In this document: piece by piece, positions 5,967 through 19,686 of the stretch
Layout of the letters: the number at the start of each line of letters is the position of its first letter
Numbering within the stretch: position 1 is the first letter of the stretch
IMG/VR virus record: IMGVR_UViG_3300034198_008368
Coordinates: 1 to 20,640 of that record
DNA length: 20,640 nt
Origin: a virus
Direction: 5' to 3' (one strand)
Program-made: the position numbers and the translations under genes
Notes under the pieces: model-generated
Told to the model about the DNA's origin: nothing
What the model saw: the letters and a program-made list of their open reading frames with translations, nothing else
Databases searched by the model: none

Positions 5967-6112
5967 TTCTTCCTCGCTTTCTTTAATGATTTAATTTTTA
6001 CTTCCAACCTTTTAACAATTTTTCTATACCCTTCGCATTGAGCTTTTAGGTCATAGTTTTGGTCTAAAATTTTTTTGTTAACATTTATTAATGCTTGCTC
6101 TTTAGTTATCAT
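5963..6112 (-). CDS. Small basic coiled-coil protein, hypothetical
   Basis: A 49-residue protein, MITKEQALINVNKKIL at the start and LEVKIKSLKKARKK at the end. It is highly basic and probably one long helix. Support: the frame fills the gap exactly, ATGA overlaps at both ends, and GAGGAAGAA is a good ribosome binding site. Like its two upstream neighbours it ends in ARKK, because the last codons and the next ribosome binding site are the same repeated 15-mer. Confidence 0.7.
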   Translation of the reverse strand: MITKEQALINVNKKILDQNYDLKAQCEGYRKIVKRLEVKIKSLKKARKK

Positions 6113-6791: not shown

Positions 6792-6835
6792 GTCAATTTT
6801 TCTAAGTGCTTGATAGTTAATAATAAAGTTTTTTA

Positions 6836-6956
6836 TTTGTACCACTAGTACCACTTGTACCACTTAGTTTGACTATTACCCCCATATATTTATTTTATTT
6901 TTTTAAAAAGAATAAAAAGAATAAAAGAGTAGTACTAGTGGTACTAGTGGTACAAA
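6836..6956. repeat. GTAC-iteron inverted-repeat element, copy 1
   Basis: An element of about 121 bp with perfect 19-bp terminal inverted repeats: TTTGTACCACTAGTACCAC at 6836-6854 and its complement at 6938-6956. Each end is built of 9-bp units around GTAC, three per end. They flank a very AT-rich core at 6879-6929. A second, about 90% similar copy in inverted orientation lies at 13880-13989. The structure fits a replication origin, a regulatory site bound by a repeat-reading protein, or a MITE-like element. It lies in the 195-base gap between genes and encodes nothing. Confidence 0.75.
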
Positions 6957-6985
6957 TTTGCCCCTTTATACTACTTTTAGTTATA

Positions 6986-7204: not shown

Positions 7205-7536
7205 TACCCCTCCTTTAGTTTGCTGTATGTGTCCTGCGCCCTGCTCACCTTGTCTTCCCAACTGTCCGCCAGTCCGTAGTCGCCCCTGCTTGCCCTCATG
7301 CGCTCGGCGTCCCTGAACTTGGGCTCGATGTCTAGCCACGCCATGAAGGCGTCCATGTACTCCTGATAGGCCTCGTTGGCGACGTAGAACGGGTGGTTAA
7401 ACCCCTCGATGTCGACCGACGACTCTATGGGTGACGGCTTGACCCACTTCGATCCCTTGCGCACCTTGTCACGTGCCCTGATGAATCGGTCGTAGGCCTT
7501 TCTTTGTTCTTGGGTCAACTCCAGTGTGTTACTCAT
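7204..7536 (-). CDS. Hypothetical protein next to the sigma factor
   Basis: A 110-residue, mostly helical, charged protein starting MSNTLELTQEQRKAYDRFIR. The ATG at 7536 has GAGGAAACAAACG upstream and overlaps the sigma-factor stop by 8 bases, so the two are probably co-translated. I checked whether it could be a detached sigma region 4: I see no helix-turn-helix pattern, so I leave it unassigned. Its position makes it a candidate partner of the sigma factor. Confidence 0.65.
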   Translation of the reverse strand: MSNTLELTQEQRKAYDRFIRARDKVRKGSKWVKPSPIESSVDIEGFNHPFYVANEAYQEYMDAFMAWLDIEPKFRDAERMRASRGDYGLADSWEDKVSRAQDTYSKLKEG

Positions 7537-8104
7537 CGTTTGTTTCCTCGTGCCTGTCATTTAAAAATGCTTCTAGTGAGATGGGCTCACGCATAACGTA
7601 CCCCCTCAACTGGCTAATGCGCTTGGTTGATACGTCCATAGCGTCTGCCAGTTCTTTAATCTTTGGCTCCCGTCCAAGGGACTGCCTTAACTGTCGCTCG
7701 ATGTAGTTCATCTTCTTAACCGCCTCGACGATGTTAATCGGTAGCCTAATGGTGCGCTCCGTGTTGTCCAACTCTCGTGTCACGAACCGCAAAATATAAT
7801 TGCCGGCGTAACTGGCAAACCGTGCGCCCTTCGTTGGCGTCCAACGCCTTGCTGCGAGCACCAGTGCGACGTTGCCCATCTGCACCAAGTCCTCGGGGGG
7901 TATGATGCTGTGTTGCCACGCCGTTGTCTTCCTAAGCATGAAGACAACCAACCGTAAGTTATGGCGTATCAGCGTGTTTAATGCGTCCGTGTCACCCTTG
8001 CCTATCTGCTCAGACAGTTTGTACTCCTGCTCCTTGGTAAGCCCGCCGATGTCCTCAGCGAGCATCCCCTGTAAGTAAGTCGTCAGCAGGTCCTTGTCCT
8101 TCAT
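7529..8104 (-). CDS. Sigma-70-family RNA polymerase sigma factor lacking region 4
   Basis: A 191-residue protein. DALNTLIRHNLRLVVFMLRK at 40-59 is region 1.2/2.1. PPEDLVQMGNVALVLAARRW at 69-88 is region 2.2. KGARFASYAGNYILRFVTRE at 92-111 is region 2.3/2.4. TIRLPINIVEAVKKMN at 118-133 and GREPKIKELADAMDV at 144-158 are region 3. The protein ends soon after the REPISLE stretch that leads to region 3.2 in host factors, so the -35-reading region 4 is absent. Relative to E. coli sigma-70, the W433/W434 pair is Asn-Tyr, Q437 is Arg106, T440 is kept, and E458, which is linked to TG recognition, is kept as Glu127. It should redirect host RNA polymerase to phage promoters. TGYATTAAT is the obvious candidate target. 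Confidence 0.9.
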   Translation of the reverse strand: MKDKDLLTTYLQGMLAEDIGGLTKEQEYKLSEQIGKGDTDALNTLIRHNLRLVVFMLRKTTAWQHSIIPPEDLVQMGNVALVLAARRWTPTKGARFASYAGNYILRFVTRELDNTERTIRLPINIVEAVKKMNYIERQLRQSLGREPKIKELADAMDVSTKRISQLRGYVMREPISLEAFLNDRHEETNDE

Positions 8105-8370
8105 TAAACTGCCTTTTGCATCTTAACAACGACGGCGTTAACGTGCTGAATCTTTGTTACTTGGCTGATAAAGTCCTCGTCAGCCAACTCACGTACCAAC
8201 GTTGCGTCGATGTTAGCACGGTCGTATGACTGCACCTCTGCAATGTACTGCTCGCCGTCGTACGTCCCAACGCCACGAGCGATTAACTCTGCCTTGAGTT
8301 TACGTGCGGTAGCCTCTAACTCTTTGATTGCTTGGTTTACTGCGCCTAATTCGTCAATAATATTCACCAT
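8104..8370 (-). CDS. Small coiled-coil phage protein, hypothetical
   Basis: An 88-residue protein. The first 33 or so residues (IDELGAVNQAIKELEATARK and on) form a likely coiled coil, followed by GVGTYDGEQYIAEVQSYDR and a short C-terminal domain. The layout (helix, then a small beta part with YDG) recalls small phage proteins that precede replication or regulatory genes, but I cannot name the family. AGGAGAATTACC precedes the ATG. The stop overlaps the sigma-factor start as TAATG, so it probably drives coupled translation of the sigma factor. Confidence 0.7.
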   Translation of the reverse strand: MVNIIDELGAVNQAIKELEATARKLKAELIARGVGTYDGEQYIAEVQSYDRANIDATLVRELADEDFISQVTKIQHVNAVVVKMQKAV

Positions 8371-8489
8371 GGTAATTCTCCTATTTTATATAAATAAACA
8401 ACTGCTAATGTACAACCGACTGCAATACTGAATATTGTAGCATACAAATAATCCATAAAGGTGGTCCTTTTAATAAAAATATTTCTCAT
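8364..8489 (-). CDS. Membrane microprotein
   Basis: A 41-residue frame, MRNIFIKRTTFMDYLYAT at the start, with one hydrophobic segment (IFSIAVGCTLAVVYLY) and a short IGELPW tail. This is a single-pass membrane protein by composition. The first ATG overlaps the upstream stop as ATGA. An internal ATG at 8456 (30 residues) has AAAAGGA upstream and is an equally good start. It overlaps the next gene's start by 7 bases. Small membrane proteins are frequent in early phage operons; the role is unknown. Confidence 0.55.
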   Translation of the reverse strand: MRNIFIKRTTFMDYLYATIFSIAVGCTLAVVYLYKIGELPW

Positions 8490-8659
8490 ATAAACGCATC
8501 CTGTTCAATTTTATGTGCAATTTTTTGCTTCAGCCACATGGCTCTGTCCCATTCGGAGTCGTCACGCCCCATCTGACGCTCCGTGTTCGACACCCTGTCA
8601 ATGTACCAATACAGCGCACGTGACAGCAGTACCAAGTCGTTGTAGTCTAAGTCGTTCAT
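8486..8659 (-). CDS. Hypothetical protein
   Basis: A 57-residue helical protein starting MNDLDYNDLVLLSRALYWYI, with WDRAMWLKQKIAHKIEQDAF towards its C-terminus. Its N-terminal acidic part and Trp-rich helices show no motif I know. The ATG overlaps the upstream stop (ATGA), and the stop overlaps the next ATG the same way, which supports the frame despite its small size. Confidence 0.65.
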   Translation of the reverse strand: MNDLDYNDLVLLSRALYWYIDRVSNTERQMGRDDSEWDRAMWLKQKIAHKIEQDAFI

Positions 8660-8955
8660 GCTTCCCCCTGTGCTATTTTAACAATCCTCTCTAACTTCTC
8701 AAGGCGCTTTGATGCCATCTTAAACGCCTCCGACATGGCGTCGGCTATCTCACGCTCACTGTAGCCCCTGTTAACGCCACCACTGCCCCAATGCATGCTG
8801 ATATCAGGCCTCTCCATCCATCCGTAGTTCAGGGTCACCTGACAGATGCCGTCCTTGCACCAGTGGGTTGGTGATGTGTAGGTGTATCTTACACGTCCCA
8901 TGACCCTGCCCAACTCCGACTCTCTCAAGTCGTCCATTACCTCTTCCTTAATCAT
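8656..8955 (-). CDS. Hypothetical protein
   Basis: A 99-residue protein starting MIKEEVMDDLRESELGRVMG. A central beta-like, Trp-rich stretch (THWCKDGICQVTLNYGWME) with two cysteines is followed by a C-terminal helix (AFKMASKRLEKLERIVKIAQ). TAGGAGTTTACA lies before the ATG at 8955. A second ATG at codon 7 also has a purine-rich site, so the start could be there. Overlaps of 8 and 4 bases with its neighbours indicate an operon. Function unknown. Confidence 0.65.
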   Translation of the reverse strand: MIKEEVMDDLRESELGRVMGRVRYTYTSPTHWCKDGICQVTLNYGWMERPDISMHWGSGGVNRGYSEREIADAMSEAFKMASKRLEKLERIVKIAQGEA

Positions 8956-9232
8956 TGTAAACTCCTATCTCTCCTGCGTTAATCCACTCGGCATGAAGCC
9001 CATACTTCTTTAATATATCCGTAATCAACGGATTAATACCAAACTCCCAGTGGGCAATGTCAGGCCCCTCATAAAAACTAGCCCACATAATGTAGTCTTT
9101 GTACCCTTCGTAGGCTGACCTACTACCCAAACCCTCAGCACTAATCTGAAAATTCTCTAAGTCACTGCGCTCGTACACCGGCGCACCAATCTTCTTAAGT
9201 GCGTTAAATGCTAGTCTATGGTTTCGTTTCAT
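8948..9232 (-). CDS. Hypothetical protein
   Basis: A 94-residue protein starting MKRNHRLAFNALKKIGAPVY. Notable are several aromatic-rich segments (YKDYIMWASFYEGPDIAHWE) and a C-terminal NPLITDILKKYGLHAEWINA. GGAGGAAATTTAATT precedes the ATG. It overlaps the next gene by 8 bases. No family recognised. Confidence 0.65.
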   Translation of the reverse strand: MKRNHRLAFNALKKIGAPVYERSDLENFQISAEGLGSRSAYEGYKDYIMWASFYEGPDIAHWEFGINPLITDILKKYGLHAEWINAGEIGVYND

Positions 9233-9234
9233 AA

Positions 9235-9402
9235 TTAAATTTCCTCCATTTTATAAACAGATGCGTCTGCTTGACCACCATTGCCGTACATGGCTTGTAT
9301 ATCTAAATCATTGAGCAATGTTTCAGCGTGTTGGTCGTTTACCGCCTCTATATCTTTAGTGATAATTGATTTTACTTCAATATAAATTCTATACTTTTTC
9401 AT
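9235..9402 (-). CDS. Small hypothetical protein
   Basis: A 55-residue acidic protein starting MKKYRIYIEVKSIITKDIEA and ending YKMEEI. It looks like a beta strand followed by helices. GAAAGGAATACAACC precedes the ATG, and its last codons contain the GGAGGA ribosome binding site of the next gene, so coupling is likely. Its leader contains a hairpin just after the upstream stop and a CAATAGA stretch shared with the leader of the 11043-11333 gene. Confidence 0.65.
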   Translation of the reverse strand: MKKYRIYIEVKSIITKDIEAVNDQHAETLLNDLDIQAMYGNGGQADASVYKMEEI

Positions 9403-9450
9403 GGTTGTATTCCTTTCTTTGTTATTAAGATTCTATTGTATCGGGTCTGT

Positions 9451-9467
9451 GGCTCATAAAGTGAGCC
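9451..9467 (-). other. Intergenic hairpin after the stop of the zinc-finger gene
   Basis: GGCTCA/TGAGCC arms (9451-9456 and 9462-9467) with a 5-base loop form a perfect 6-bp stem that begins at the last base of the upstream TAG. No U-run follows, so it is not a classical terminator. It could protect a 3' end or mark a processing site. I looked for a hammerhead core here and found none. Confidence 0.4.
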
Positions 9468-9682
9468 TAGTCTCTGCCGTCCCAAAATATTTTTACGTAC
9501 AACTCACGTGTTGGCTTGCGCACCGTATCAGCCTCAAACCGACCCGTGTTGTAGTACTTCTTAAAGTCTGCACAGGCCTTAAGGTCAAGCCCGCACCTGT
9601 GGACGTGCTCACAGCCCGTGCACGGCATTTTTTCATTCAATATCTTTTCAACGTGCCTATTTCGATTCATTGCTATTTTCAT
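9467..9682 (-). CDS. Small Cys-rich (zinc-finger-like) phage protein
   Basis: A 71-residue protein with four cysteines in the pattern C21-x2-C24-x5-C30-x6-C37 (PCTGCEHVHRCGLDLKACAD), followed by FKKYYNTGRF. This CxxC...ACxDFxxYxxxG layout recurs in small phage proteins and probably binds zinc; the function is unknown. The ATG at 9682 overlaps the upstream stop as ATGA with AGAGGG upstream. A second ATG four codons later is possible. Confidence 0.7.
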   Translation of the reverse strand: MKIAMNRNRHVEKILNEKMPCTGCEHVHRCGLDLKACADFKKYYNTGRFEADTVRKPTRELYVKIFWDGRD

Positions 9683-9975
9683 ATTGTGCCCTCTGCGCCC
9701 TGTATGTACTCTTGTTTCTTAATGTCAAAAAAACTAAACGTCTCCCACGCCGTGCCGTCCTCAGTGGGGTCAATAACCATTTCATAGTCACGTGAACCAA
9801 TCCAAAAATGGTGGTGGGTGCGCTCTCTATGGTCTGCGCCTGATTGCCACAGACGACCCCGTATAGAGCCCCTAGTGCCGTCGTTGATGATAATCCATTG
9901 GTCTGTATCAAGATTAAAAATTAATGTAATGGTGACCCTGTTAGTGAGTCTTACGTCGTGTATAGATGCCTTCAT
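9679..9975 (-). CDS. Hypothetical protein
   Basis: A 98-residue protein starting MKASIHDVRLTNRVTITLIF. It appears mostly beta (VTITLIFNLDTDQWIIINDG) with a His-rich turn (DHRERTHHHFWIG). ATGA overlaps at both ends put it in a coupled group of four genes (10393 down to 9467). No motif identifies a function. Confidence 0.65.
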   Translation of the reverse strand: MKASIHDVRLTNRVTITLIFNLDTDQWIIINDGTRGSIRGRLWQSGADHRERTHHHFWIGSRDYEMVIDPTEDGTAWETFSFFDIKKQEYIQGAEGTI

Positions 9976-10181
9976 TTAATGTATCCGCTTTCAATTAAGT
10001 ACTGGTTGATAACCTCGTCGATGTCCTCAGTCTCTGAGTTCACTACGCCCTGTGCAATGATGCCTTCAGCGATTTGACATATTAGGTGCCTTGCGCTCGC
10101 CCTTGGGTGACCTTGCAGCAAATGGTCCAACTGCCACCCCACCTCGATGGCTACCTCTTCGTCAATGTACGTGTTTTTCAT
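9972..10181 (-). CDS. Hypothetical protein
   Basis: A 69-residue acidic, helical protein starting MKNTYIDEEVAIEVGWQLDH, with HPRASARHLICQIAEGIIAQ in the middle and a DIDEVINQYL helix near the end. GAGGTGGCACA precedes the ATG, which overlaps the upstream stop. Function unknown. Confidence 0.65.
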   Translation of the reverse strand: MKNTYIDEEVAIEVGWQLDHLLQGHPRASARHLICQIAEGIIAQGVVNSETEDIDEVINQYLIESGYIK

Positions 10182-10393
10182 TGTGCCACCTCGACGATTC
10201 TGTACTGCTCTATGTCGTACGGCTCCTCTAGGTCACCGTTTTGGAAGTCCACAAGGGTGCAGGCAATAAACTCTTCGAGTTCTTTCTCCGCCTCTTCCTT
10301 GGTGTCGTACGTTGTTGGGTTGCCCCGTTCGTCCGTCCATACGTTCTCCCACCCGTACAAAAACTCTGTCTGTACCTCAAATTTAGATGCCAT
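10178..10393 (-). CDS. Conserved small protein, unknown function
   Basis: A 71-residue protein starting MASKFEVQTEFLYGWENVWT. The pattern FEVQT...GWENVWTDE.GNPTTYDTKEEAEKELEEF and a closing YRIVEV recalls a small conserved family found in phages and Proteobacteria (strand, strand, helix, strand), of unknown role; this is memory of the pattern, not a search. AGGGAGAAGCAT precedes the ATG. It overlaps the upstream gene by 11 bases. Confidence 0.7.
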   Translation of the reverse strand: MASKFEVQTEFLYGWENVWTDERGNPTTYDTKEEAEKELEEFIACTLVDFQNGDLEEPYDIEQYRIVEVAQ

Positions 10394-10757
10394 ATGCTTC
10401 TCCCTTGTGAATAATAAATGTTGGTTCTACTTCTTTGTACACCTCAATAAAGCCCTGTTCGTCGGACACGTACACGTCGTACCCAGCCTCAGCGACTTGA
10501 AATGCAACCGTGCCAAATGAATCGTACACTGCGTCCCACGTGCTAAAGTCCAAGCCCTCCCTGTCGATTTTAATGCTGAGTGTATCCTCCCACGAGTCTA
10601 AGATGTCGTTGGCTTGGTCCGACAACTGCTGAGGCGTTGCGTCCTCTGCGTCCATGTAGTGGCCGTCCTCCTCGTCGCCCTCCTCGTACTCAAACCAACT
10701 GTCAAAGTGCGTGTACTCGATTGGGTTTACTTCCGGCTGTATGTCTAGTAGTGCCAT
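10383..10757 (-). CDS. Acidic hypothetical protein
   Basis: A 124-residue, strongly acidic protein starting MALLDIQPEVNPIEYTHFDS. EYEEGDEEDGHYMDAEDATP at about 23-42 is almost entirely acidic. The later part (TVAFQVAEAGYDVYVSDEQG) looks alpha/beta. Highly acidic early phage proteins sometimes mimic DNA, but nothing here proves that. ATTAGGAGAAATTAAC precedes the ATG. Confidence 0.65.
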   Translation of the reverse strand: MALLDIQPEVNPIEYTHFDSWFEYEEGDEEDGHYMDAEDATPQQLSDQANDILDSWEDTLSIKIDREGLDFSTWDAVYDSFGTVAFQVAEAGYDVYVSDEQGFIEVYKEVEPTFIIHKGEAYGI

Positions 10758-10758
10758 G

Positions 10759-10893
10759 TTAATTTCTCCTAATGTCGATGATTAAACCGCCTGTTACCTT
10801 GGCGTACTTCTTTGCGTGCTTTAAATTGTAAAACGGTATTGATACCTGTTCACCGCTCTTGTCAACGTATACAACTAAGTACTCATAGTCCAT
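10759..10893 (-). CDS. Small hypothetical protein
   Basis: A 44-residue protein starting MDYEYLVVYVDKSGEQVSIP and ending LIIDIRRN. It is probably a small beta-rich fold with one basic helix (NLKHAKKYAKVTGG). The ribosome binding site CTGAAAGGATACACA is of the same cassette type as those before the primase and the ribozyme-linked genes. Its last codons contain the AGGAGAAAT site of the next gene. Confidence 0.65.
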   Translation of the reverse strand: MDYEYLVVYVDKSGEQVSIPFYNLKHAKKYAKVTGGLIIDIRRN

Positions 10894-10908
10894 TGTGTAT
10901 CCTTTCAG

Positions 10909-11043
10909 TTAATAGGGTTGTACTGCGATGCGATAATCCCAAACCGACAACTCTTCGGCGCTTATGCCGGCAAGGTAGGCTTGTGCCTGTGACTCGTTAT
11001 AAAACCGTGCGACTATTGAACCGCCTAGCATGATGTAAAACAT
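10909..11043 (-). CDS. Small hypothetical protein
   Basis: A 44-residue protein starting MFYIMLGGSIVARFYNESQA and ending DYRIAVQPY. It has the look of a strand-helix-strand mini-protein. It starts at a TAATG overlap with the upstream gene, preceded by GAGGAGATTCA. Function unknown. Confidence 0.65.
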   Translation of the reverse strand: MFYIMLGGSIVARFYNESQAQAYLAGISAEELSVWDYRIAVQPY

Positions 11044-11333
11044 TATTGAATCTCCTCGTCACTTAATAGTTCAATCCCTAAGTCCTTACAAATAGACCTG
11101 AAAAGGTCGCCGTTTGCCTTTTTGATAGCAAGAGACTTGCGTCTTTGCTCTTCTTTTTGCTCGTCCGAAAGACGTGGCGTAGGCGCACGGTAATTCATTG
11201 GAACCGTCTCAAAACTGTAAGGCAAACTTACTGCCTCGTGGGCTTCAGCACTCATTACACGCTCATAACAAGCCTCGGCACGCTCGTGCTCTTCTTGTCT
11301 TGCTTTTGCTAGTGGGTCAAATCTTGTAATCAT
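11043..11333 (-). CDS. Charged helical hypothetical protein
   Basis: A 96-residue protein starting MITRFDPLAKARQEEHERAE. Highly charged helices at both ends (SDEQKEEQRRKSLAIKKANG near 60-80) surround a Pro-containing middle (VPMNYRAPTPRL). AAAGGAAATACACC precedes the ATG. The 73-base gap upstream holds a leader similar to that of the 9235-9402 gene and follows a GGG/CCC-containing stop region. Function unknown. Confidence 0.65.
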   Translation of the reverse strand: MITRFDPLAKARQEEHERAEACYERVMSAEAHEAVSLPYSFETVPMNYRAPTPRLSDEQKEEQRRKSLAIKKANGDLFRSICKDLGIELLSDEEIQ

Positions 11334-11406
11334 GGTGTATTTCCTTTGTTGTTTAGATGTATCTATTGTCGTGGGTTATTTCGGGTTTGTGAATTAGGGG
11401 AAACCC

Positions 11407-11655
11407 TTAGTTCTCAAAAATTAATTCAAACTGTTTATTGAACGGCTCTAGGTCTATCTGCACACTGTAGTCCGTGATGCCTGTATCCCTGTCGTACGGG
11501 TACACGTTGACGACAAACACGTCCTCGCCCTCGTTGTCGTGGATGTTGACTGAGTAATTATTGAGAAAGTACCAAACGTCCCCGTCCGCATACAGGTCGT
11601 GCTTGCAACGCTCTTTGATAATGTCTACGGCCTGTTGTAATCGTCTAGTATTCAT
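11407..11655 (-). CDS. Hypothetical protein
   Basis: An 82-residue acidic protein starting MNTRRLQQAVDIIKERCKHD, with beta-rich segments YSVNIHDNEGEDVFVVNVYP and DYSVQIDLEPF. It looks like a helix followed by a four-strand sheet. GAGGACTAAT before the ATG overlaps the end of the upstream 44-residue gene. No family recognised. Confidence 0.65.
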   Translation of the reverse strand: MNTRRLQQAVDIIKERCKHDLYADGDVWYFLNNYSVNIHDNEGEDVFVVNVYPYDRDTGITDYSVQIDLEPFNKQFELIFEN

Positions 11656-11656
11656 A

Positions 11657-11791
11657 TTAGTCCTCTAGTATTTGTACGATGTAGCCCATCTCTAACAAGT
11701 AGCCGGCCTCTTCGACGGCCTCTTCTATTGTGGCAAACTTCTCTTCTCTAAACGGCTCGTTAATGCTTGTAGTTTTATATAGTGTGTACAT
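11657..11791 (-). CDS. Small hypothetical protein downstream of a hammerhead ribozyme
   Basis: A 44-residue acidic protein starting MYTLYKTTSINEPFREEKFA, then an IEEAVEEAGYLLEMGY helix and a VQILED end (strand-helix-strand). CTGAAAGGATTACT precedes the ATG. The predicted cleavage site of the type II ribozyme lies 49 bases upstream of the ATG, so the processed mRNA would carry a short structured 5' leader. Function unknown. Confidence 0.65.
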   Translation of the reverse strand: MYTLYKTTSINEPFREEKFATIEEAVEEAGYLLEMGYIVQILED

Positions 11792-11811
11792 AGTAATCCT
11801 TTCAGGTTGTT

Positions 11812-11864
11812 AGTCATCATCAGTGCACGCCTCACGTGCAGACAGCCGGCCGGCTGTTTCGACT
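11812..11864 (-). ncRNA. Type II hammerhead ribozyme (copy C)
   Basis: Read on the - strand: helix II strand AGTC (11864-11861), GAA (11860-11858), helix III hairpin ACAGCC/GGCTGT (11857-11852, 11847-11842, loop GGCC), cleavage C17 at 11841, helix I hairpin TGCACG/CGTGCA (11840-11835, 11829-11824), CTGATGA (11823-11817), one extra T (11816), and the closing helix II strand GACT (11815-11812). This is the complete hammerhead order, opened at helix II. The extra base after A9 is at the position where the CChMVd viroid hammerhead also has one. It starts just after the upstream stop (11868-11870) and ends 20 bases before the next ATG. Predicted cleavage is between 11841 and 11840. Confidence 0.85.
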
Positions 11865-11867
11865 TGG

Positions 11868-12077
11868 TTATTTTGTGCACCCCTCACAATTGCAAGAAAT
11901 AACATTTCCTTCTTTAACATACTTTCTTAAGTCAGCCAGTGAGTCAAACCCCCTAATATGATAAATATCAGAGTCATTAATACGAAAACCGGCCGGCGTA
12001 TTTAAAATGTAATCTGTATTACCGAAATAATCGCTCGAAATGTCCACATCACGTTTAATGTTTAATTTGTATTTCAT
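11868..12077 (-). CDS. Small hypothetical protein between ribozymes
   Basis: A 69-residue protein starting MKYKLNIKRDVDISSDYFGN and ending in a Cys-containing tail, ISCNCEGCTK, possibly metal-binding. The ATG at 12077 is chosen over an upstream one because CTGAAAGGTAATAAT lies directly before it. Its stop is followed almost at once by the type II hammerhead at 11864. No family recognised. Confidence 0.65.
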   Translation of the reverse strand: MKYKLNIKRDVDISSDYFGNTDYILNTPAGFRINDSDIYHIRGFDSLADLRKYVKEGNVISCNCEGCTK

Positions 12078-12081
12078 ATTA

Positions 12082-12228
12082 TTACCTTTCAGCATGAGTG
12101 TTGATATCCACACAGTCGTCCAACTCGTCGACCATGTCGGCACTGTATCGGTTACCGTCAATATAAAGGAAAACGTACTGCTCTTGGTCGCAGTCTTTTA
12201 ACTGCTCGATTAGGTCTTTAACTTTCAT
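12082..12228 (-). CDS. Small hypothetical protein
   Basis: A 48-residue acidic protein starting MKVKDLIEQLKDCDQEQYVF, with LYIDGNRYSADMVDELDDC in the middle. The opening KDLIEQLKDCDQEQYV.L..DG resembles small proteins common in phage and bacterial genomes, without known function. GGAAAGACTAAT precedes the ATG, and its last codons (GCTGAAAGG) form the ribosome binding site of the next gene. Confidence 0.65.
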   Translation of the reverse strand: MKVKDLIEQLKDCDQEQYVFLYIDGNRYSADMVDELDDCVDINTHAER

Positions 12229-12229
12229 A

Positions 12230-12448
12230 TTAGTCTTTCCAATCGATGGTTATGTTGTTGGCGTTGCACAAGTCAATGACTATCTGCTCGTATACGTTAA
12301 TGAACCTGTCACTAATTGAGCAGTCAAACAAGTCCGTGACGAACACTTGTTTGTCTGTTGTGTTGGCGTATTCTTTTAAGTCGTCTGTGGTTATCTTTAA
12401 CATCATGTCCATGACGGTCTTATCTCTAAGTAATTGCTTTGGTAACAT
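12230..12448 (-). CDS. Small hypothetical protein downstream of a hammerhead ribozyme
   Basis: A 72-residue protein starting MLPKQLLRDKTVMDMMLKIT. It is mostly helical, with TDKQVFVTDLFDCSISDRFI in the middle. CTGAAAGGATTACC precedes the ATG. The predicted cleavage site of the type II ribozyme (12498/12497) lies 49 bases upstream of the ATG, the same distance as in copy C. Function unknown. Confidence 0.65.
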   Translation of the reverse strand: MLPKQLLRDKTVMDMMLKITTDDLKEYANTTDKQVFVTDLFDCSISDRFINVYEQIVIDLCNANNITIDWKD

Positions 12449-12468
12449 GGTAATCCTTTCAGGTTGTT

Positions 12469-12522
12469 AGTCATCATCAGTGAGCGCCTTACGCTCAGAC
12501 AGCCTCGACGGCTGTTTCGACT
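12469..12522 (-). ncRNA. Type II hammerhead ribozyme (copy B)
   Basis: Same layout as copy C: helix II strand AGTC (12522-12519), GAA (12518-12516), helix III hairpin ACAGCC/GGCTGT (12515-12510, 12504-12499, loop GTCGA), C17 at 12498, helix I TGAGCG/CGCTCA (12497-12492, 12486-12481), CTGATGA (12480-12474), extra T (12473), and GACT (12472-12469). Compared with copy C, helix I differs at matched positions on both arms (GCACG/CGTGC against GAGCG/CGCTC), while the catalytic core is identical. That is compensatory change, good evidence for a selected RNA fold. It begins four bases after the stop of the upstream gene. Confidence 0.87.
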
Positions 12523-12525
12523 TGT

Positions 12526-12780
12526 TTACTGGTAAATAATGTTCTCAGCATATGCGATTAACTGTGCGTCTTTATGGTCAAGTGTTTTAACCAATTGGTA
12601 ATCGTCGTCGATGAAATCATATATTTCATACTTAAACTGCTTTGTCTTTGTGTTGTACTCTAAAACGTCTGTATCACCTACTTGCCACGTATATACATCG
12701 TCGCCTAGTTTCTCAGGCAGTAATGCAAGTGGAACTACTTTGTGTGAGTCAATTAATTTTAAGAATGTAAAGTTTGCCAT
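12526..12780 (-). CDS. Small hypothetical protein downstream of a type III hammerhead ribozyme
   Basis: An 84-residue acidic protein starting MANFTFLKLIDSHKVVPLAL. It is probably beta-rich (DDVYTWQVGDTDVLEYNTKT, FKYEIYDFIDDDYQLVKTL), with a short C-terminal helix. AAAGGATATATACC precedes the ATG. It is framed by ribozymes: type III just upstream (12800-12851) and type II just after its stop (12522). Function unknown. Confidence 0.7.
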   Translation of the reverse strand: MANFTFLKLIDSHKVVPLALLPEKLGDDVYTWQVGDTDVLEYNTKTKQFKYEIYDFIDDDYQLVKTLDHKDAQLIAYAENIIYQ

Positions 12781-12799
12781 GGTATATATCCTTTATGTT

Positions 12800-12851
12800 A
12801 GGGTTTCGCACTTACGTGCTCGTCAGTACTGGTACATAACCAGTAGACCCT
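12800..12851 (-). ncRNA. Type III hammerhead ribozyme (copy A)
   Basis: Read on the - strand: helix III 5' strand AGGGT (12851-12847), cleavage C17 at 12846 (triplet GTC), helix I hairpin TACTGGT/ACCAGTA (12845-12839, 12833-12827, loop TATGT), core CTGACGA (12826-12820), helix II GCAC/GTGC with a GTAA tetraloop (12819-12808), core GAA (12807-12805), and helix III 3' strand ACCCT (12804-12800). Every invariant hammerhead core base is present (CUGANGA, GAA, A15.1-U16.1, GUC). Helix III is 5 bp, so the ribozyme is short but complete. It lies 20-71 bases upstream of the ATG at 12780, and AAAGGA follows directly. Confidence 0.94.
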
Positions 12852-12895
12852 TTAGGTCTTCTAGAGCGTTTCCATCCTCTAGGCTTGCCTCATGT

Positions 12896-12988
12896 TTACA
12901 GTGGTAGGTACTTTAACTCGCCACTTGCGGTGATTAGCACCGCCCCTCCAATAACTACTATTCTCCTCGCATTTTTGGCGTCTGTCAT
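12896..12988 (-). CDS. Putative hydrophobic microprotein
   Basis: A 30-residue frame, MTDAKNARRIVVIGGAVLIT then ASGELKYLPL, with a basic start and one hydrophobic stretch (IVVIGGAVLI). AGGG lies about 10 bases before the ATG, which is only moderate support. It would be the first gene of the leftward early transcript. Its region also forms strong RNA hairpins (for example GCGGTG/CACCGC at 12927-12943), so it may instead be structured leader RNA. Confidence 0.35.
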   Translation of the reverse strand: MTDAKNARRIVVIGGAVLITASGELKYLPL

Positions 12989-13187
12989 TGGGGTAAACCC
13001 TAGGTTATGCAAAATAATTGGACTTTATCACATCGTGAAATGATTACACATATGTTACACAATTCGCCCCAATTGTCATAAATATTTCACTTGACACGCT
13101 TGTTCTATAAGGCTCGCAGGCCTGCCTCTCAGAACGCTCTGTGTTGCGTTATCTTATCGGGTCTAGTGCAGACGCCTCAGACAAGAA

Positions 13188-13222
13188 TTAAACGCCTTGT
13201 AGCCCCCTCTATTGGCGTTTAA
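13188..13222. repeat. Perfect 9-bp inverted repeat
   Basis: TTAAACGCC (13188-13196) and GGCGTTTAA (13214-13222) are exactly complementary, separated by 17 bases. This fits an operator with two half-sites or an RNA hairpin in the leader of the leftward transcript. No U-run follows the stem, so a terminator is less likely. Confidence 0.5.
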
Positions 13223-13340
13223 ATGCCATGTTGTGGGCGTGCAACAGTGGGATATCGTGGGTAATTGTGGAAGATGTTATTAGCCATGTTGGGGCGCCCA
13301 CCGCACCGTGTCCGTCGCGCCCGCATGGCCTATCAGACCG

Positions 13341-13523
13341 TAATGATAATCATTCTCATCTAGGCTCGGTGCGCAGGGGGACAGAGTGGCCAGTAAGTCA
13401 GTAAGCGCACACTAACAGTGAGGGACAGAGTGGGCCCGTTTGCCACTAAGTCAGTGTGCACTAACATACAGTGAGGGACAGAGTGGGCGCCGAGGCTGAT
13501 TGCGAATGAGAATCATTCTCATC
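13341..13523. repeat. Two Fur-box-like palindromes
   Basis: The sites are at 13341-13360 (TAATGATAATCATTCTCATC) and 13504-13523 (GAATGAGAATCATTCTCATC). Compared with the 19-bp Fur consensus GATAATGATAATCATTATC I count 16 of 19 and 15 of 19 matches. The second holds a perfect 8-bp inverted repeat around one C (13506-13522). Similarity continues about 15 bases past each site (GC[TC][CT]GGTGC). They may bind host Fur or a phage repressor with a similar site. Confidence 0.45.
13378..13486. repeat. Imperfect tandem repeats with GGGACAGAGTGG
   Basis: GGGACAGAGTGG occurs at 13378-13389, 13422-13433 and 13475-13486, spaced 44 and 53 bases. Between copies, AGTCAGT and CACTAAC stretches recur in the same order. 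The block lies between the two Fur-like palindromes. Such directly repeated modules in a non-coding phage region suggest protein-binding sites at an origin or packaging site. Confidence 0.55.
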
Positions 13524-13560
13524 TGCGCTTGGTGCTAGTTAAGTCTGTAGGGCGCCTAGA

Positions 13561-13673
13561 CTATGTGTGTAAGTGCTCACTTAACGCACCGCCCCAGTGA
13601 GCGCTTACTTACATAGCGCACCGCCCCAGTGAGCGCTTACTTACATTGTGCCTATGTGTGTGAGTGCTCACTT
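13561..13673. repeat. A-B-B-A repeat cluster forming two long hairpins
   Basis: Unit A is at 13561-13582 and 13652-13673 (20 of 22 or better identical). Unit B (29 bp) is at 13586-13614 and 13618-13646, identical copies with a 32-bp period. The end of B is the reverse complement of A: 13561-13581 pairs with 13596-13616 over 21 positions with 18 Watson-Crick pairs, two G-T pairs and one mismatch. B copy 2 can pair with A copy 2 in the same way. The loops contain CACCGCCCC. A replication or packaging site is the most natural reading. Confidence 0.65.
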
Positions 13674-13717
13674 CGGGGGGTGTTGTTTATAAACCACACA
13701 CCCTTAACGGGTCCTGT

Positions 13718-13742
13718 CCGGCGGGCCGGGGCCGGGGGCCCC
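13718..13742. repeat. Adjacent GC-rich hairpins
   Basis: CCGGC/GCCGG (13718-13722 and 13725-13729) and GGGGCC/GGCCCC (13728-13733 and 13737-13742) are perfect stems that share two bases, so they are mutually exclusive or alternate. They mark the sharp change from GC-rich to AT-rich sequence. Possible strong pause site, terminator stem or nuclease recognition structure. Confidence 0.45.
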
Positions 13743-13879
13743 ACAGATCAGTAGCTCGTATAATTTTCCAGTGTTTGTGCAAAAAAGTGACTTTTAAATT
13801 TTTTTTTTTGGGAAATTCTATAAGGTTTACTTAGGGTAAACCCTTAGTGACTTCTGTAAGTCCTTGATATTTGTCTGGG

Positions 13880-13989
13880 TTGTACCACTAGTACTACTCT
13901 TTTATTCTTTTTATTATTTTTAAAAAAATAAAATAAATATACTGGGGGTAAGGTCAAAAACGTCGTACAAGTGGTACTAGTGGTACAAA
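13880..13989. repeat. GTAC-iteron inverted-repeat element, copy 2
   Basis: Reverse-oriented relative of the 6836-6956 element, about 90% similar by eye. It lacks one 9-bp iteron at the end nearest 13880 and has small changes between the opposite terminal repeat and the AT core. Terminal repeats are TTGTACCACTAGTAC (13880-13894) and its complement within 13971-13989. It ends just before the first late promoter. In both copies the same end faces the downstream gene, which favours a regulatory or origin role. The 13971 ATG is part of the repeat, not a gene start. Confidence 0.75.
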
Positions 13990-14036: not shown

Positions 14037-14339
14037 ATGAAATACGCATATCAGATACAAGGTGCACTGGAGGATCAAAACCAGGAAATCACAGGATTTC
14101 GGGTTATCTTGTGCACGGCGTATCATTTTTATAACGTGGACGCACCAGCAGAGTTGTTTGATAGAAGCACCTTACAGTACATTAAGTTTAGGCTGGCGGT
14201 AAATTCACACATGAACATGAAGAACCTGCCTGTGCCTATTCAAAATAAGATTAGAACGCCGTTAGGGCGTTTCCTTGACTTTTGGGTCTTAGAAAATACA
14301 GATGGCTATTTTAGCGAACGAAAAGATATTAACACTTGA
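14037..14339 (+). CDS. Conserved phage protein at the head of the packaging operon, unknown function
   Basis: A 100-residue protein starting MKYAYQIQGALEDQNQEITG, with ILCTAYHFYNVDAPAELF and NMKNLPVPIQNKIRTPLGRF further on. The longer frame from 13971 begins in the repeat element, so the ATG at 14037 is chosen. It coincides with the predicted transcription start of the promoter at 14002-14030. It overlaps the Hint gene by 38 bases. By position (first gene before the terminase) it could be the small terminase subunit, but no DNA-binding motif is visible. A similar small protein in this position seems familiar from aquatic phages. Confidence 0.75.
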   Translation: MKYAYQIQGALEDQNQEITGFRVILCTAYHFYNVDAPAELFDRSTLQYIKFRLAVNSHMNMKNLPVPIQNKIRTPLGRFLDFWVLENTDGYFSERKDINT

Positions 14340-15291
14340 TTATTGGAAGACTGCGGATAAAGTAGTTGTGGGAGACTATGTGTTTGACAGGAAGGGCGAC
14401 CTGGTTAAGGTCACCAGCATCCAGCACTTTGAGTCTAGGTGCTACACCATCCACCTGGACGATTTGATGTCTGTCAACGGTAACGGCGCGCTTAGTTTTT
14501 TATTGGAAACTCCCAAGTACAGGATCAGGTCGCTGGAGTACAAGGGCAAAAAAGAGTTTAGGCGGCCCCTACTAAAGCTGTCCGTGCTTGAGTTGCTTGA
14601 AAAACCACTGCGCTACAAGGGCAACAAGCTATTTTTTTCAATCCCAACCTGCGAACCGCTCAAGTTACCGCACCAAGACTTGCCAGTTCCGCCGTTTGTC
14701 TTTGGCTTTTGGTACTGGAACCGACTAAAGAATAACGTTTTTGCACTAAAAGACATAAACTTTAAAGAAACGACGCAAAAATTAAAAGATTTTGGCTACA
14801 AGGTTATTAAATTATCAAAAAGACACGACAGCGCACACATTTTTAGCCTGGAGCCAAGCGTCGAGTCGCAGCTATACCCATTTATACCCCCACAAATACC
14901 CAATAACTACCTTTTAGCCAGCCAGGAGCAACGAATTGAGCTCCTAAGTGGCATTATTAATGGCAGAATCAGGCAGTACCATAAAAAAATAGATCGTTTT
15001 AAGATTGGTTGTGCTAATTGGCTAAGAGTTAGGCAGCTACAGGCGCTGATTGAGTCAATTGGTTGCAAGACAACCATCCATTCACAAGAATACATCAAGT
15101 CTTACACCATTAGCTTTAAAAGTCGTTACAAATTATGTGAGCATCAAGAATCACCACCGATACGCATACACCAAACGCGTAGGTACATTACAAAGATTGA
15201 AGAGATTGGCACACATCAATGTGTACACATTGAAACCAACGGGCCGGATGGCTCATTTTTAGTAGGTGAAGGGTTTATCACATGTCGTTAA
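14302..15291 (+). CDS. Standalone degenerate intein-like (Hint/LAGLIDADG) protein
   Basis: A 329-residue protein. The N-terminal part, NEKILTLDYWKTADKVVVGD to about residue 66, matches intein blocks A-B in layout but lacks Cys1 at the start and the block B histidine (VNGNGALSF in place of a TxxH-type motif). About 200-260 holds LLSGIINGRI, which aligns with a LAGLIDADG helix but lacks the catalytic acid. The C-terminus HQCVHIETNGPDGSFLVGEG then FITCR resembles blocks F-G, with TCR where inteins have HN-C. Splicing and cutting therefore look lost. Homologues directly before the terminase are, to my memory, conserved in uncultured aquatic phages, suggesting a domesticated role. It overlaps the terminase start by 10 bases. 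Confidence 0.8.
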   Translation: MAILANEKILTLDYWKTADKVVVGDYVFDRKGDLVKVTSIQHFESRCYTIHLDDLMSVNGNGALSFLLETPKYRIRSLEYKGKKEFRRPLLKLSVLELLEKPLRYKGNKLFFSIPTCEPLKLPHQDLPVPPFVFGFWYWNRLKNNVFALKDINFKETTQKLKDFGYKVIKLSKRHDSAHIFSLEPSVESQLYPFIPPQIPNNYLLASQEQRIELLSGIINGRIRQYHKKIDRFKIGCANWLRVRQLQALIESIGCKTTIHSQEYIKSYTISFKSRYKLCEHQESPPIRIHQTRRYITKIEEIGTHQCVHIETNGPDGSFLVGEGFITCR

Positions 15292-16788: not shown

Positions 16789-19686
16789 ATGGCAAACCCA
16801 AACATACCGATTCAACAAGGTGGTAATTTACCAGCTTTGGATTTTAAAAAAGACGAAGAAGTTAAAAAAGAACAGCTTCAAGAAGAAGAGATATCTGAGC
16901 TTGAGCAAAAATTGGGTTTGGATGAAAGCGAAACAGAAGGCGAAATAATTGAATTAGAAGACGGTTCCGTGATTATTAACATGGAACAAACCAAGGGCCC
17001 TAAAGACAGCCCTAAGTTTTATGAAAATTTAGCCGAGTCATTAGATGATGCTACGTTGGACCAATTGGCCAATGACTACTTAGACTTTATCGACAATGAC
17101 CAAGATGCCAGAAAAACAAGAGACAAGCAATATGAAGAGGGGCTACGCCGCACTGGTCTTGGTAAGGACGCTCCTGGCGGCGCTACTTTTGATGGTGCTT
17201 CTAAAGTTGTTCATCCAGTTATGGCGGAGTCATGCGTAGACTTTGCTGCAAGTTCTGCAAAAGAGTTACTTCCACCTGAAGGCATTGTTAAGGCCAACAT
17301 TAAAGGCACGGATAACAAAGACAAGTTAGAAATAGCAGAACGTAAGGCTAATTTTTTAAATTGGCAGTTAACAGAACAAATTCCAGAGTACCGCGATGAG
17401 ATGGAACAGCTACTCACACAGTTGCCATTGGGTGGTTCACAGTTTTTAAAATGGCGCTGGGATAGTGAACAAACTCGCCCAATGTGTGAGTGGATACCAA
17501 TTGACAACATCCTATTACCTTACTCCTCTACCAATTTTTACACAGCACAGCGTGTAACAGAAGTACAAGACATTACAGAAGACATTTTTTTACAGCGCGT
17601 AGAGCAAAAAATCTACAGAGAAATTGATTCAACTTACTCATCCGACGCGCCGTTAAATGATCAAACACAGTCTGAAAAAGCAAACAATAAAATTGAAGGC
17701 AAAGACTTACCCGGTAAAAATATTGACGGTTTGCGTCGCATATACGAGATTACTTGCTTTATGCGCTTGGAAGACGATGACAAAACAGACGGCAAGCGCG
17801 CACCTTACATTTTAACAATCGACGAGACAACCGGTAAGGTATTGTCTTTGTATAGAAACTGGGCAGACGGCGATGAAAAACTTGAGAAATTGGACTGGTA
17901 CGTTGAATTTAAGTTTATACCTTGGCGTGGCGCTTATGCTATTGGTTTACCTCACCTTATTGGTGGTCTTAGCGCCGCTCTTACTGGCGCACTTCGTGCT
18001 CTCCTTGACGCTGCACATATTAACAATAGCCAGACAATGCTTAAACTCAAGGGCGGACGCATTGGTGGACAGTCTGATCGGATCGAGCCGACGCAAGTAA
18101 TAGAAATTGAAGGCGCTCCAGGTGTTGACGACGTGCGCAAGTTGGCGATGGCCTTGCCATTTAACCAGCCCTCTAGCGTCCTATTTAACCTTCTAGGATG
18201 GCTTACAGACGCGGCTAAGGGTGTGGTAACCACCGCAGAAGAAAAGATTGGCGAAGCAAATAATAACATGCCGGTGGGTACAACCCAGGCATTGATTGAG
18301 CAAGGTGCCAAAGTATTTTCTAGCATTCATGCACGATTGCACCGCAGCCAAGCCAAGTCATTAAAAATTATTTCGCGAATTAATAACTGGTACTTGTCTG
18401 AAATGGACAATCAGTCAGGCGAAGAAGTAGAAGTTCGTGACTTTGCCTACAATAGCGACGTACGCCCTGTTTCAGACCCTAACATTTTTTCTGAGACACA
18501 ACGTCTTGCACAAAATCAAGCCTTGTTGCAAATGGCAACGTCTGCGCCTCCCGGAATGTTTGACTTACGCGCCGTTTACAGCCGTATTGTGCAACAACTA
18601 AAGATACCGGAAGCGGAACAAATACTACCAAACCCACAAGGCGCAAAAGAATCCAACCCAGCGTTAGAAAACGTTTCTATGACGATGGGCAGACCAGCTG
18701 CTGCCTACCCCGACCAAGATCACATGTCACACATACAGGTTCACCTGGAGTATGCAAAGAATCCGGTATACGGTGGCAGCCCGGTCATTGGACCATCATT
18801 TGCTCCGGTGTGTTTAGAACATATCAAGCAACACTTAATGTTGTTTTATCTGCAGTCTATGCGTAGTGTTGTTGCACAAGCCTCGGAAGGAAAAGACGTA
18901 CTAAATCTACACGAAGAAAAAGCGTTAGATAAAGAGTCACAGCAAGCTATAGCGCTTTGCTCTAAGATTGTTGACCAAGACTCACAACAAGTCTTACAGC
19001 CGTACATGCAAGACATTATGGCTTTAGTACAAAAAGTACAGCAAATGCATCAGGCAAAACAACAAGAAGCTGCAGGAGCTGATCCAACAGCACAGGTTAT
19101 TCTTAAAACTCAAATGGCAGAAACAGAACGTAAAGCTAAAGAGTTCCAAGCCAAAATGCAGTCAGATGTACAAAAAGCAACACAAGACTACCAGCTTAAG
19201 GTTGCTGAATTACAGCAAAAAGTGGCGGAATTGCAGGCTAAGTACTCAACACAAACCAGCATTGATAACCAGCGCAACGCAACAGACATTGCAATGGCTA
19301 ACATTAACAACGCCGCGCGCGAGCGTGTGGCAATGATTACAGCCGGCGCTCAAATGGATCAGCAACAAATGCAGTTGGAACACGAACAAGACATGTCAGC
19401 TATGGAGGCAATTGCCGCAGCCAATCAAGACATTAGGCAGCATGGATTGTCAATTGAGCAGCAAAACTTCCAACAACAGGCCGAAATGGTAAAGCAGCAA
19501 GCACAACAAGATGCACAACACCAAGCACAAATTGGACTAGCTGATCAACAGCATCAGCAGCAATTAATGCAAAATGATCAACAACATCAGCAGCAAGTAG
19601 TGCAAAATGATCAACAGCACCAAAACACAATAGAACAACAAATGCAGCAACCGCAACCGCAATCACAACCGCAAGAAGGACAATAA
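16789..19686 (+). CDS. Portal protein with a long Gln-rich C-terminal tail
   Basis: A 965-residue protein, longer than P22-type portals (about 725). Residues 75-165, with ATFDGASKVVHPVMAESCVD followed by FAASSAKELLPPEG, are typical of P22-like portals of environmental podoviruses. The ring-forming core continues to about residue 640. The portal makes the dodecameric DNA channel at the capsid vertex. The acidic N-terminus (20-60) looks disordered. From about residue 745 the protein is a long coiled coil that becomes Gln-rich, ending in an 11-residue repeat (DQQHQQQLMQN). The tail may match the barrel that extends into the head in P22. It is the first gene after late promoter 2 and lacks a strong ribosome binding site. 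Confidence 0.9.
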   Translation: MANPNIPIQQGGNLPALDFKKDEEVKKEQLQEEEISELEQKLGLDESETEGEIIELEDGSVIINMEQTKGPKDSPKFYENLAESLDDATLDQLANDYLDFIDNDQDARKTRDKQYEEGLRRTGLGKDAPGGATFDGASKVVHPVMAESCVDFAASSAKELLPPEGIVKANIKGTDNKDKLEIAERKANFLNWQLTEQIPEYRDEMEQLLTQLPLGGSQFLKWRWDSEQTRPMCEWIPIDNILLPYSSTNFYTAQRVTEVQDITEDIFLQRVEQKIYREIDSTYSSDAPLNDQTQSEKANNKIEGKDLPGKNIDGLRRIYEITCFMRLEDDDKTDGKRAPYILTIDETTGKVLSLYRNWADGDEKLEKLDWYVEFKFIPWRGAYAIGLPHLIGGLSAALTGALRALLDAAHINNSQTMLKLKGGRIGGQSDRIEPTQVIEIEGAPGVDDVRKLAMALPFNQPSSVLFNLLGWLTDAAKGVVTTAEEKIGEANNNMPVGTTQALIEQGAKVFSSIHARLHRSQAKSLKIISRINNWYLSEMDNQSGEEVEVRDFAYNSDVRPVSDPNIFSETQRLAQNQALLQMATSAPPGMFDLRAVYSRIVQQLKIPEAEQILPNPQGAKESNPALENVSMTMGRPAAAYPDQDHMSHIQVHLEYAKNPVYGGSPVIGPSFAPVCLEHIKQHLMLFYLQSMRSVVAQASEGKDVLNLHEEKALDKESQQAIALCSKIVDQDSQQVLQPYMQDIMALVQKVQQMHQAKQQEAAGADPTAQVILKTQMAETERKAKEFQAKMQSDVQKATQDYQLKVAELQQKVAELQAKYSTQTSIDNQRNATDIAMANINNAARERVAMITAGAQMDQQQMQLEHEQDMSAMEAIAAANQDIRQHGLSIEQQNFQQQAEMVKQQAQQDAQHQAQIGLADQQHQQQLMQNDQQHQQQVVQNDQQHQNTIEQQMQQPQPQSQPQEGQ
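19543..19641 (+). repeat. 33-bp tandem repeat in the portal tail
   Basis: Units start at 19543, 19576 and 19609 (each beginning GATCAACA). The first two are nearly identical; the third diverges at its end. They encode DQQHQQQLMQN, DQQHQQQVVQN and DQQHQNTIEQQ. Slippage of CAR-rich codons probably created them. Confidence 0.85.

Follow-up and report, generated by a model that had tools for sequence, protein, structure and literature searches.

What several hammerhead ribozymes could do between the genes of a single phage operon is the question raised by this locus; the role of phage and bacterial hammerheads was called open both in a 2017 review and in a 2023 paper (PMC6155905, PMC10085705). 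The stretch of DNA that was analysed (the window) is a virus record of 20,640 bases, in which the early genes occupy the minus strand and are read leftward from 12780, the late genes rightward (terminase at 15282, portal at 16789). An earlier note on this DNA had read two type II hammerheads at neighbouring gene junctions, with a type III copy nearby, and stated that no phage operon processed in this way had been described. The latter statement does not hold. Type II hammerheads and hammerhead clusters around prophage genes were reported by Perreault et al. (2011), who proposed processing of polycistronic RNA (PMC3088659). Clustered prophage hammerheads and the processing proposal have been known since then; what this analysis adds is a fixed geometry from stop to start, the scale of the arrays and a subclass that lacks the pseudoknot, has a UNANG pentaloop and usually carries an extra U behind A9.

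Across the 10.25 kb compared, a 66-kb contig matches the window at 99.92% identity, and therefore the window belongs to that phage or to a very close one. The only type II matches in the whole 66-kb record were the same two. Among named phages no nucleotide match to window positions 8001-13800 was found; the closest named-phage terminase is 52% identical, and the part of that phage record that was searched gave no hit. Some other features of the window were noted. The early operon encodes a sigma-70-like protein (7529-8104; Pfam regions 2 and 3). Two similar elements, at 6835-6957 and 13880-13988, have an AT-rich centre flanked by long inverted arms (TTGTACCACTAGTAC...). The non-coding stretch between the divergent gene blocks (13342-13703) holds several families of direct repeats and is possibly a control region or origin. 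A stand-alone ORF (14302-15291) overlaps the terminase start by 10 bases, matches parts of PHROG terminase families weakly and has no Pfam match; it is possibly an intein-like region.

Hammerhead elements of the early operon

Two complete type II hammerheads were read directly on the minus strand at the places given by the earlier note (Table 1). Copy A reads, from 11864 to 11812, AGUC GAA ACAGCC-ggcc-GGCUGU C17 (11841) UGCACG-ugagg-CGUGCA CUGAUGA u GACU, and copy B, from 12522 to 12469, AGUC GAA ACAGCC-gucga-GGCUGU C17 (12498) UGAGCG-uaagg-CGCUCA CUGAUGA u GACU. In both, stems I and III are closed and stem II is open, which is the type II topology, and the minimum-free-energy folds directly contain the hammerhead helices. 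GAA, the C17 site and CUGAUGA are common to the two copies, as are the stem II arms AGUC/GACU, and the predicted cleavage positions check out on the sequence. Helix I has two pairs changed in step between A and B (C-G to A-U and A-U to G-C), and the helix III loop is 4 nt in copy A and 5 nt in copy B. Each copy starts 3 nt past the stop codon of the upstream gene (11868-11870 for copy A, 12526-12528 for copy B) and ends 20 nt ahead of the next ATG (at 11791 and 12448). The earlier note is thus confirmed in its coordinates, predicted cuts, spacing to stop and start and compensatory changes; it had not mentioned the extra U that both copies have between A9 and G10.1.

The type III copy in the leader of gene 1 brings the count to three ribozymes of two topologies, as had also been claimed. 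Its stems I and II are closed, stem III is open and the core is intact. One relative was found (L005), in which stems I and II are changed with pairing kept. In the free fold stems I and II form, and the stem III strand pairs alternatively with an upstream hairpin. This hairpin, ACCUAAAGGGU at 12847-12860, competes with stem III and is conserved in L005 (around 6071-6086); it is a possible switch.

A mechanical hammerhead scan of the window returned exactly three elements. With minimal stems, chance gave 0.275 type II and 0.02 type III matches per shuffled window (200 shuffles); when stems I and III were both required to have at least 6 pairs, no type II match occurred in 200 shuffled windows. 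Judged by their sequence, all three elements can be taken as hammerhead ribozymes, encoded in the leftward-running early operon of a tailed phage.

Table 1. Ribozymes, predicted cleavage sites and genes of the early operon in the window
Feature	Position	Strand	Remarks
Type III hammerhead ribozyme	12800..12851	(-)	C17 = 12846; leader of gene 1; stems I/II/III of 7, 4 and 5 pairs
Gene 1, 84 aa	12526..12780	(-)	first gene of the leftward early operon
Type II hammerhead ribozyme, copy B	12469..12522	(-)	junction of gene 1 (84 aa) and gene 2 (72 aa)
Predicted cleavage site, copy B	12497..12498	(-)	after C17 at 12498; hammerhead numbering on sequence
Extra U between A9 and G10.1, copy B	12473..12473	(-)	read from sequence
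Shine-Dalgarno AGGA of gene 2	12454..12457	(-)	in predicted post-cleavage leader of copy B
Gene 2, 72 aa	12230..12448	(-)	directly downstream of copy B
Gene 3, 48 aa	12082..12228	(-)	
Gene 4, 69 aa	11868..12077	(-)	directly upstream of copy A
Type II hammerhead ribozyme, copy A	11812..11864	(-)	junction of the 69-aa and 44-aa genes; exact core, three helices
Predicted cleavage site, copy A	11840..11841	(-)	after C17 at 11841; hammerhead numbering on sequence
Extra U between A9 and G10.1, copy A	11816..11816	(-)	read from sequence
Shine-Dalgarno AGGA of gene 5	11797..11800	(-)	in predicted post-cleavage leader of copy A
Gene 5, 44 aa	11657..11791	(-)	directly downstream of copy A

Covariation and the short-loop type II subclass

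The covariance-model search that the earlier note had proposed gave a divided answer. Against the Rfam model RF02276 copy A scored 31.5 bits, below the gathering threshold of 37, and copy B was not reported as type II, because the window copies deviate from the RF02276 consensus; the sub-threshold score is a feature of the model and not of the topology. The model R1, based on 41 phage copies, gave 71.3 bits for copy A (E = 1e-20) and 70.3 bits for copy B (E = 2e-20), scores that are high partly by construction, both copies being in the 41-copy alignment. Since this is so, the independent evidence beyond chance is the covariation. Across the 41 copies 653 of 656 helix cells are paired (99.5%), and 12 of the 16 pairs have changes on both sides. 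The covariation score was 0.634 versus 0.148 for shuffled alignments and at most 0.078 with slid partners, and was reached by none of 500 shuffles. The three helices are 100, 98.8 and 100% paired, the A15.1-U16.1 pair is A-U in all 41 copies, and the core (CUGANGA, GAA and a cleavage base H17 that is not G) is invariant except for N7. In relatives the stems were kept by compensation and no broken-stem remnant was seen, so that the claim withstood the refuting condition that the earlier note had set for related phages.

Like Hammerhead_II of Rfam (RF02276), the window copies have the type II topology, CUGAUGA, GAA, A15.1-U16.1 and C17. Unlike it, they have a helix II of 4 pairs plus the extra U, a 5-nt loop I and no pseudoknot of at least 4 pairs. 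In the RF02276 type II consensus such a pseudoknot between loop I and the 3' tail is a majority feature and not a universal one. Two ribozyme-pattern searches enlarged the collection to 189 distinct type II copies, which split cleanly into 110 with a 5-nt loop I and 79 with loops of at least 8 nt. The long-loop copies showed the loop I-3' tail pseudoknot, with a mean longest complement of 4.57 versus 3.25 by chance and at least 4 pseudoknot pairs in 81% of them. The short-loop copies, to which those of the window belong, have at least 4 pairs in helix II and mostly UNANG in loop I. These 110 gave no pseudoknot signal (mean longest complement 2.25 versus 2.35 by chance), which rules out the loop I pseudoknot as the tertiary contact of this subclass; in the window copies loop I and the 3' tail allow only 3 pairs (AGG/CCU), fewer than the 4 by which the pseudoknot was scored. 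The short-loop subclass also offers structural work a target, namely the way in which its helices I and II come to dock when the known pseudoknot is absent.

Between A9 and G10.1, 15 of the 22 copies from the terminase relatives described below and 18 of the 63 copies of one pattern-search set carry an additional base; in each case it is U. The plus-strand hammerhead of chrysanthemum chlorotic mottle viroid likewise has an extra nucleotide at this place. There it is an A, and the phage base is the very substitution that sped up the viroid ribozyme: A10-to-U is described as raising the trans-cleaving rate 3-4 fold (PMC3705267, as cited there from De la Pena and Flores, 2001). By analogy, the extra U may be a functional and perhaps rate-favouring feature.

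Junction geometry and turnover of the neighbouring genes

A terminase search yielded 80 contigs, 31 of them with 4 kb or more of upstream sequence. Of these 31, 11 carry between one and three type II hammerheads, on the strand opposite the terminase; therefore the element is dispensable in the group. Together they provide 22 distinct type II copies, window included, that were obtained without a ribozyme query. All 22 lie 2-4 nt after a stop codon and have the next start at a median of 18 nt, and in 19 a start with a Shine-Dalgarno follows within 8-45 nt. This supports the view of the earlier note that the placement looks built to cut between genes. In the collection of 189, 68% have both a stop within -4 to +10 and a Shine-Dalgarno start within 8-45 nt; positions drawn at random on the same strands do so in 1.8% of cases. 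Since the pattern searches selected ribozyme sequence and not context, this comparison is a fair one, but the per-genome counts that they give are not a census.

Longer series of hammerheads were encountered as well. The model, run against whole records, matched 16 times within 10 kb of a 50.8-kb contig and 12 times in a contig of 71.8 kb; three further contigs gave 10, 8 and 8 matches. The maps of these arrays show hammerheads alternating with single genes or gene pairs. In L195 (1839-11860 of its minus strand), L196, L197, L198 and L199 there are 8 to 16 type II hammerheads per operon. No published description of arrays of up to 16 copies was found in the literature checked, which was not exhaustive. 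Type II hammerheads were further seen in metagenome bins (L205-L212), mostly ahead of Shine-Dalgarno-like sites and probably in prophage DNA; several bin names point to Gastranaerophilales/Melainabacteria and one to Synergistaceae. A match from the bacterial-genome scan (L204, Novosphingobium; 30.4 bits) lies inside a gene and was rejected as a chance match.

In other phages this junction position is taken by type I hammerheads, of which 59 of 80 are near both a stop and a start. Several type I copies per contig were observed at the stop-to-start position of type II in L218, L221 and L238. Type III copies are rare (5 among the loci examined). The idea that type II was chosen for leaving hairpins on both products is only partly supported: type I shares the junction position, while type III is rare.

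The genes around the ribozymes change freely. The 176 proteins downstream of ribozymes belong to 137 families, and of the ribozyme pairs compared between contigs 65 share the upstream gene only, 49 the downstream gene only and 14 both. This indicates that the role of the ribozyme is generic and not gene-specific.

The junction behind gene 1, a gene without a match in Pfam or PHROG, was surveyed in relatives as the earlier note had suggested. The gene-1 protein as query gave only two close relatives, and a profile was used instead. A type II hammerhead follows gene 1 in 10 of 13 relatives, part of whose contigs came from the ribozyme-pattern searches, and the next gene is mostly a different one; the other 3 have no hammerhead at this junction. 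In L059 and L060 a different GC-rich hairpin (GGCGGGG..CCCCGCC) stands in its place. In L194 and L202, whose genes 1 and 2 are 95-97% identical to those of the window, an extra unit of a hammerhead and a 190-aa gene lies between the two, and the hammerhead ahead of gene 2 in L202 retains stem I and the leader of the window copy. In this case gene and ribozyme were gained or lost as one unit. In other relatives the gene pair of copy A is replaced.

Proposed processing of the operon transcript and alternative readings

Hammerheads cut after C17, leaving a 2',3'-cyclic phosphate on the upstream product and a 5'-OH on the downstream product. The elements described here combine the hammerhead sequence with a covarying structure, a fixed placement at junctions and independence of gene identity, and several lie on one strand between co-directional phage genes. 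Given hammerhead chemistry, it is very probable that co-transcriptional cleavage splits the polycistronic phage RNA into hairpin-capped mRNAs. As RNA polymerase passes, each type II copy would fold in the gap between stop codon and Shine-Dalgarno and cut after C17. The upstream mRNA would then end in the closed stem III hairpin with its cyclic phosphate, and the downstream mRNA would open with the closed stem I hairpin, the 5'-OH sitting right on that stem and the Shine-Dalgarno coming next. The leader of the operon would be trimmed by the type III copy, so that the gene 1 message also begins with a hairpin. Stems III and I at the new 3' and 5' ends may slow exonucleases and 5'-end-dependent decay. 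The spacing (2-4 nt behind the stop and some 18-20 nt ahead of the start) would leave just enough room for an initiating ribosome and would put the 5' part of the ribozyme under the terminating one. As to its purpose, we infer separate expression or lifetime of neighbouring genes and protection of the new RNA ends.

Known systems offer several points of comparison. Phage-type hammerheads in tandem have been found to cut themselves both in vitro and in E. coli, and among the 18 consensus hammerheads assayed in 2011 four were inactive (PMC3088659). The clustered phage and prophage hammerheads of that study, e.g. the Agrobacterium ardA triple, resemble ours in that several on one strand flank single phage-origin genes or short blocks of them, and these genes are not constant. 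Unlike those clusters, the window copies do not have the published loop I pseudoknot, their placement is quantified here (2-4 nt after the stop and about 18-20 nt before the start) and some of the other contigs reach 16 copies in 10 kb. In the haloviruses HF1/HF2 the 5' end of an mRNA was placed no more than 3 nt from the hammerhead site (PMC3088659). That hammerhead, ahead of a helicase gene, likewise lies close upstream of a phage start codon, but it is a single copy with a variant core at the operon head, a position that resembles the type III copy of the window and not the type II copies. RiboJ insulators also place a hammerhead between upstream RNA and ribosome-binding site, leave a fixed 5' leader and are credited with higher mRNA stability (PMC7536230); they are engineered and used one per promoter, whereas the window ribozymes are natural and lie between genes.

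Among the alternatives, the ribozymes could primarily be modular seams, conserved 50-nt cassettes at the ends of genes that serve homologous recombination in swapping, inserting or deleting single genes, with cleavage secondary. The inserted unit of hammerhead and 190-aa gene, the replaced gene pair of copy A and the many pairs that share one neighbour only are what such seams would produce. However, stems I and III are identical in only 16-17% of within-contig pairs, the compensatory changes fit selection for pairing and not for identity, and recombination needs no strict distance to stop and start. We consider this unlikely. Less likely again is that the ribozymes are ligand- or protein-controlled switches of the downstream gene: although they sit just ahead of the Shine-Dalgarno and the competing hairpin of the type III copy is conserved in the window and L005, no conserved aptamer-like domain is attached, the window loops are of 4-5 nt and the downstream genes are mostly unrelated.

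A retrozyme-like course, in which two copies together free an RNA with a gene on it and this RNA is religated into a circle, is very improbable. With the shared AGUC/GACU arms, an excised piece could re-form one core from its two ends, and 77% of within-contig pairs have the same stem II, but so do 51% of across-contig pairs, so that the excess is modest and confounded by kinship. Spliced or circular products were sought by Perreault et al. and not found (PMC3088659). Moreover, the pieces are coding genes and not repeats; a retrozyme or viroid-like identity was rejected for the coding genes of 72, 48 and 69 aa between the type II copies and for their differing stems. That ordinary intergenic hairpins or terminators resemble hammerheads by chance, as two GC-rich hairpins per element and Rfam scores under the gathering thresholds might suggest, is refuted by the strong covariation and the nearly invariant unpaired core of the 41 copies, and no terminator-like site was found on the minus strand at the ribozyme positions, which leaves this reading a negligible chance.

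The preferred reading remains cleavage of the polycistronic RNA at gene junctions. There is about an even chance that it extends further: that in many phages the early operons are ribozyme-punctuated strings, in which nearly every gene or gene pair has its own hammerhead wedged between stop codon and Shine-Dalgarno, the transcript is turned into single-gene hairpin-capped messages and a ribozyme and its gene come and go as one unit, with the window copies representing the pseudoknot-free UNANG/extra-U type II subclass. The strict geometry, the independence of particular genes and arrays with as many as 16 copies all speak for a single generic role, the separation of mRNAs at junctions, which is directly testable by 5'-OH and 2',3'-cyclic-phosphate ends at the predicted nucleotides.
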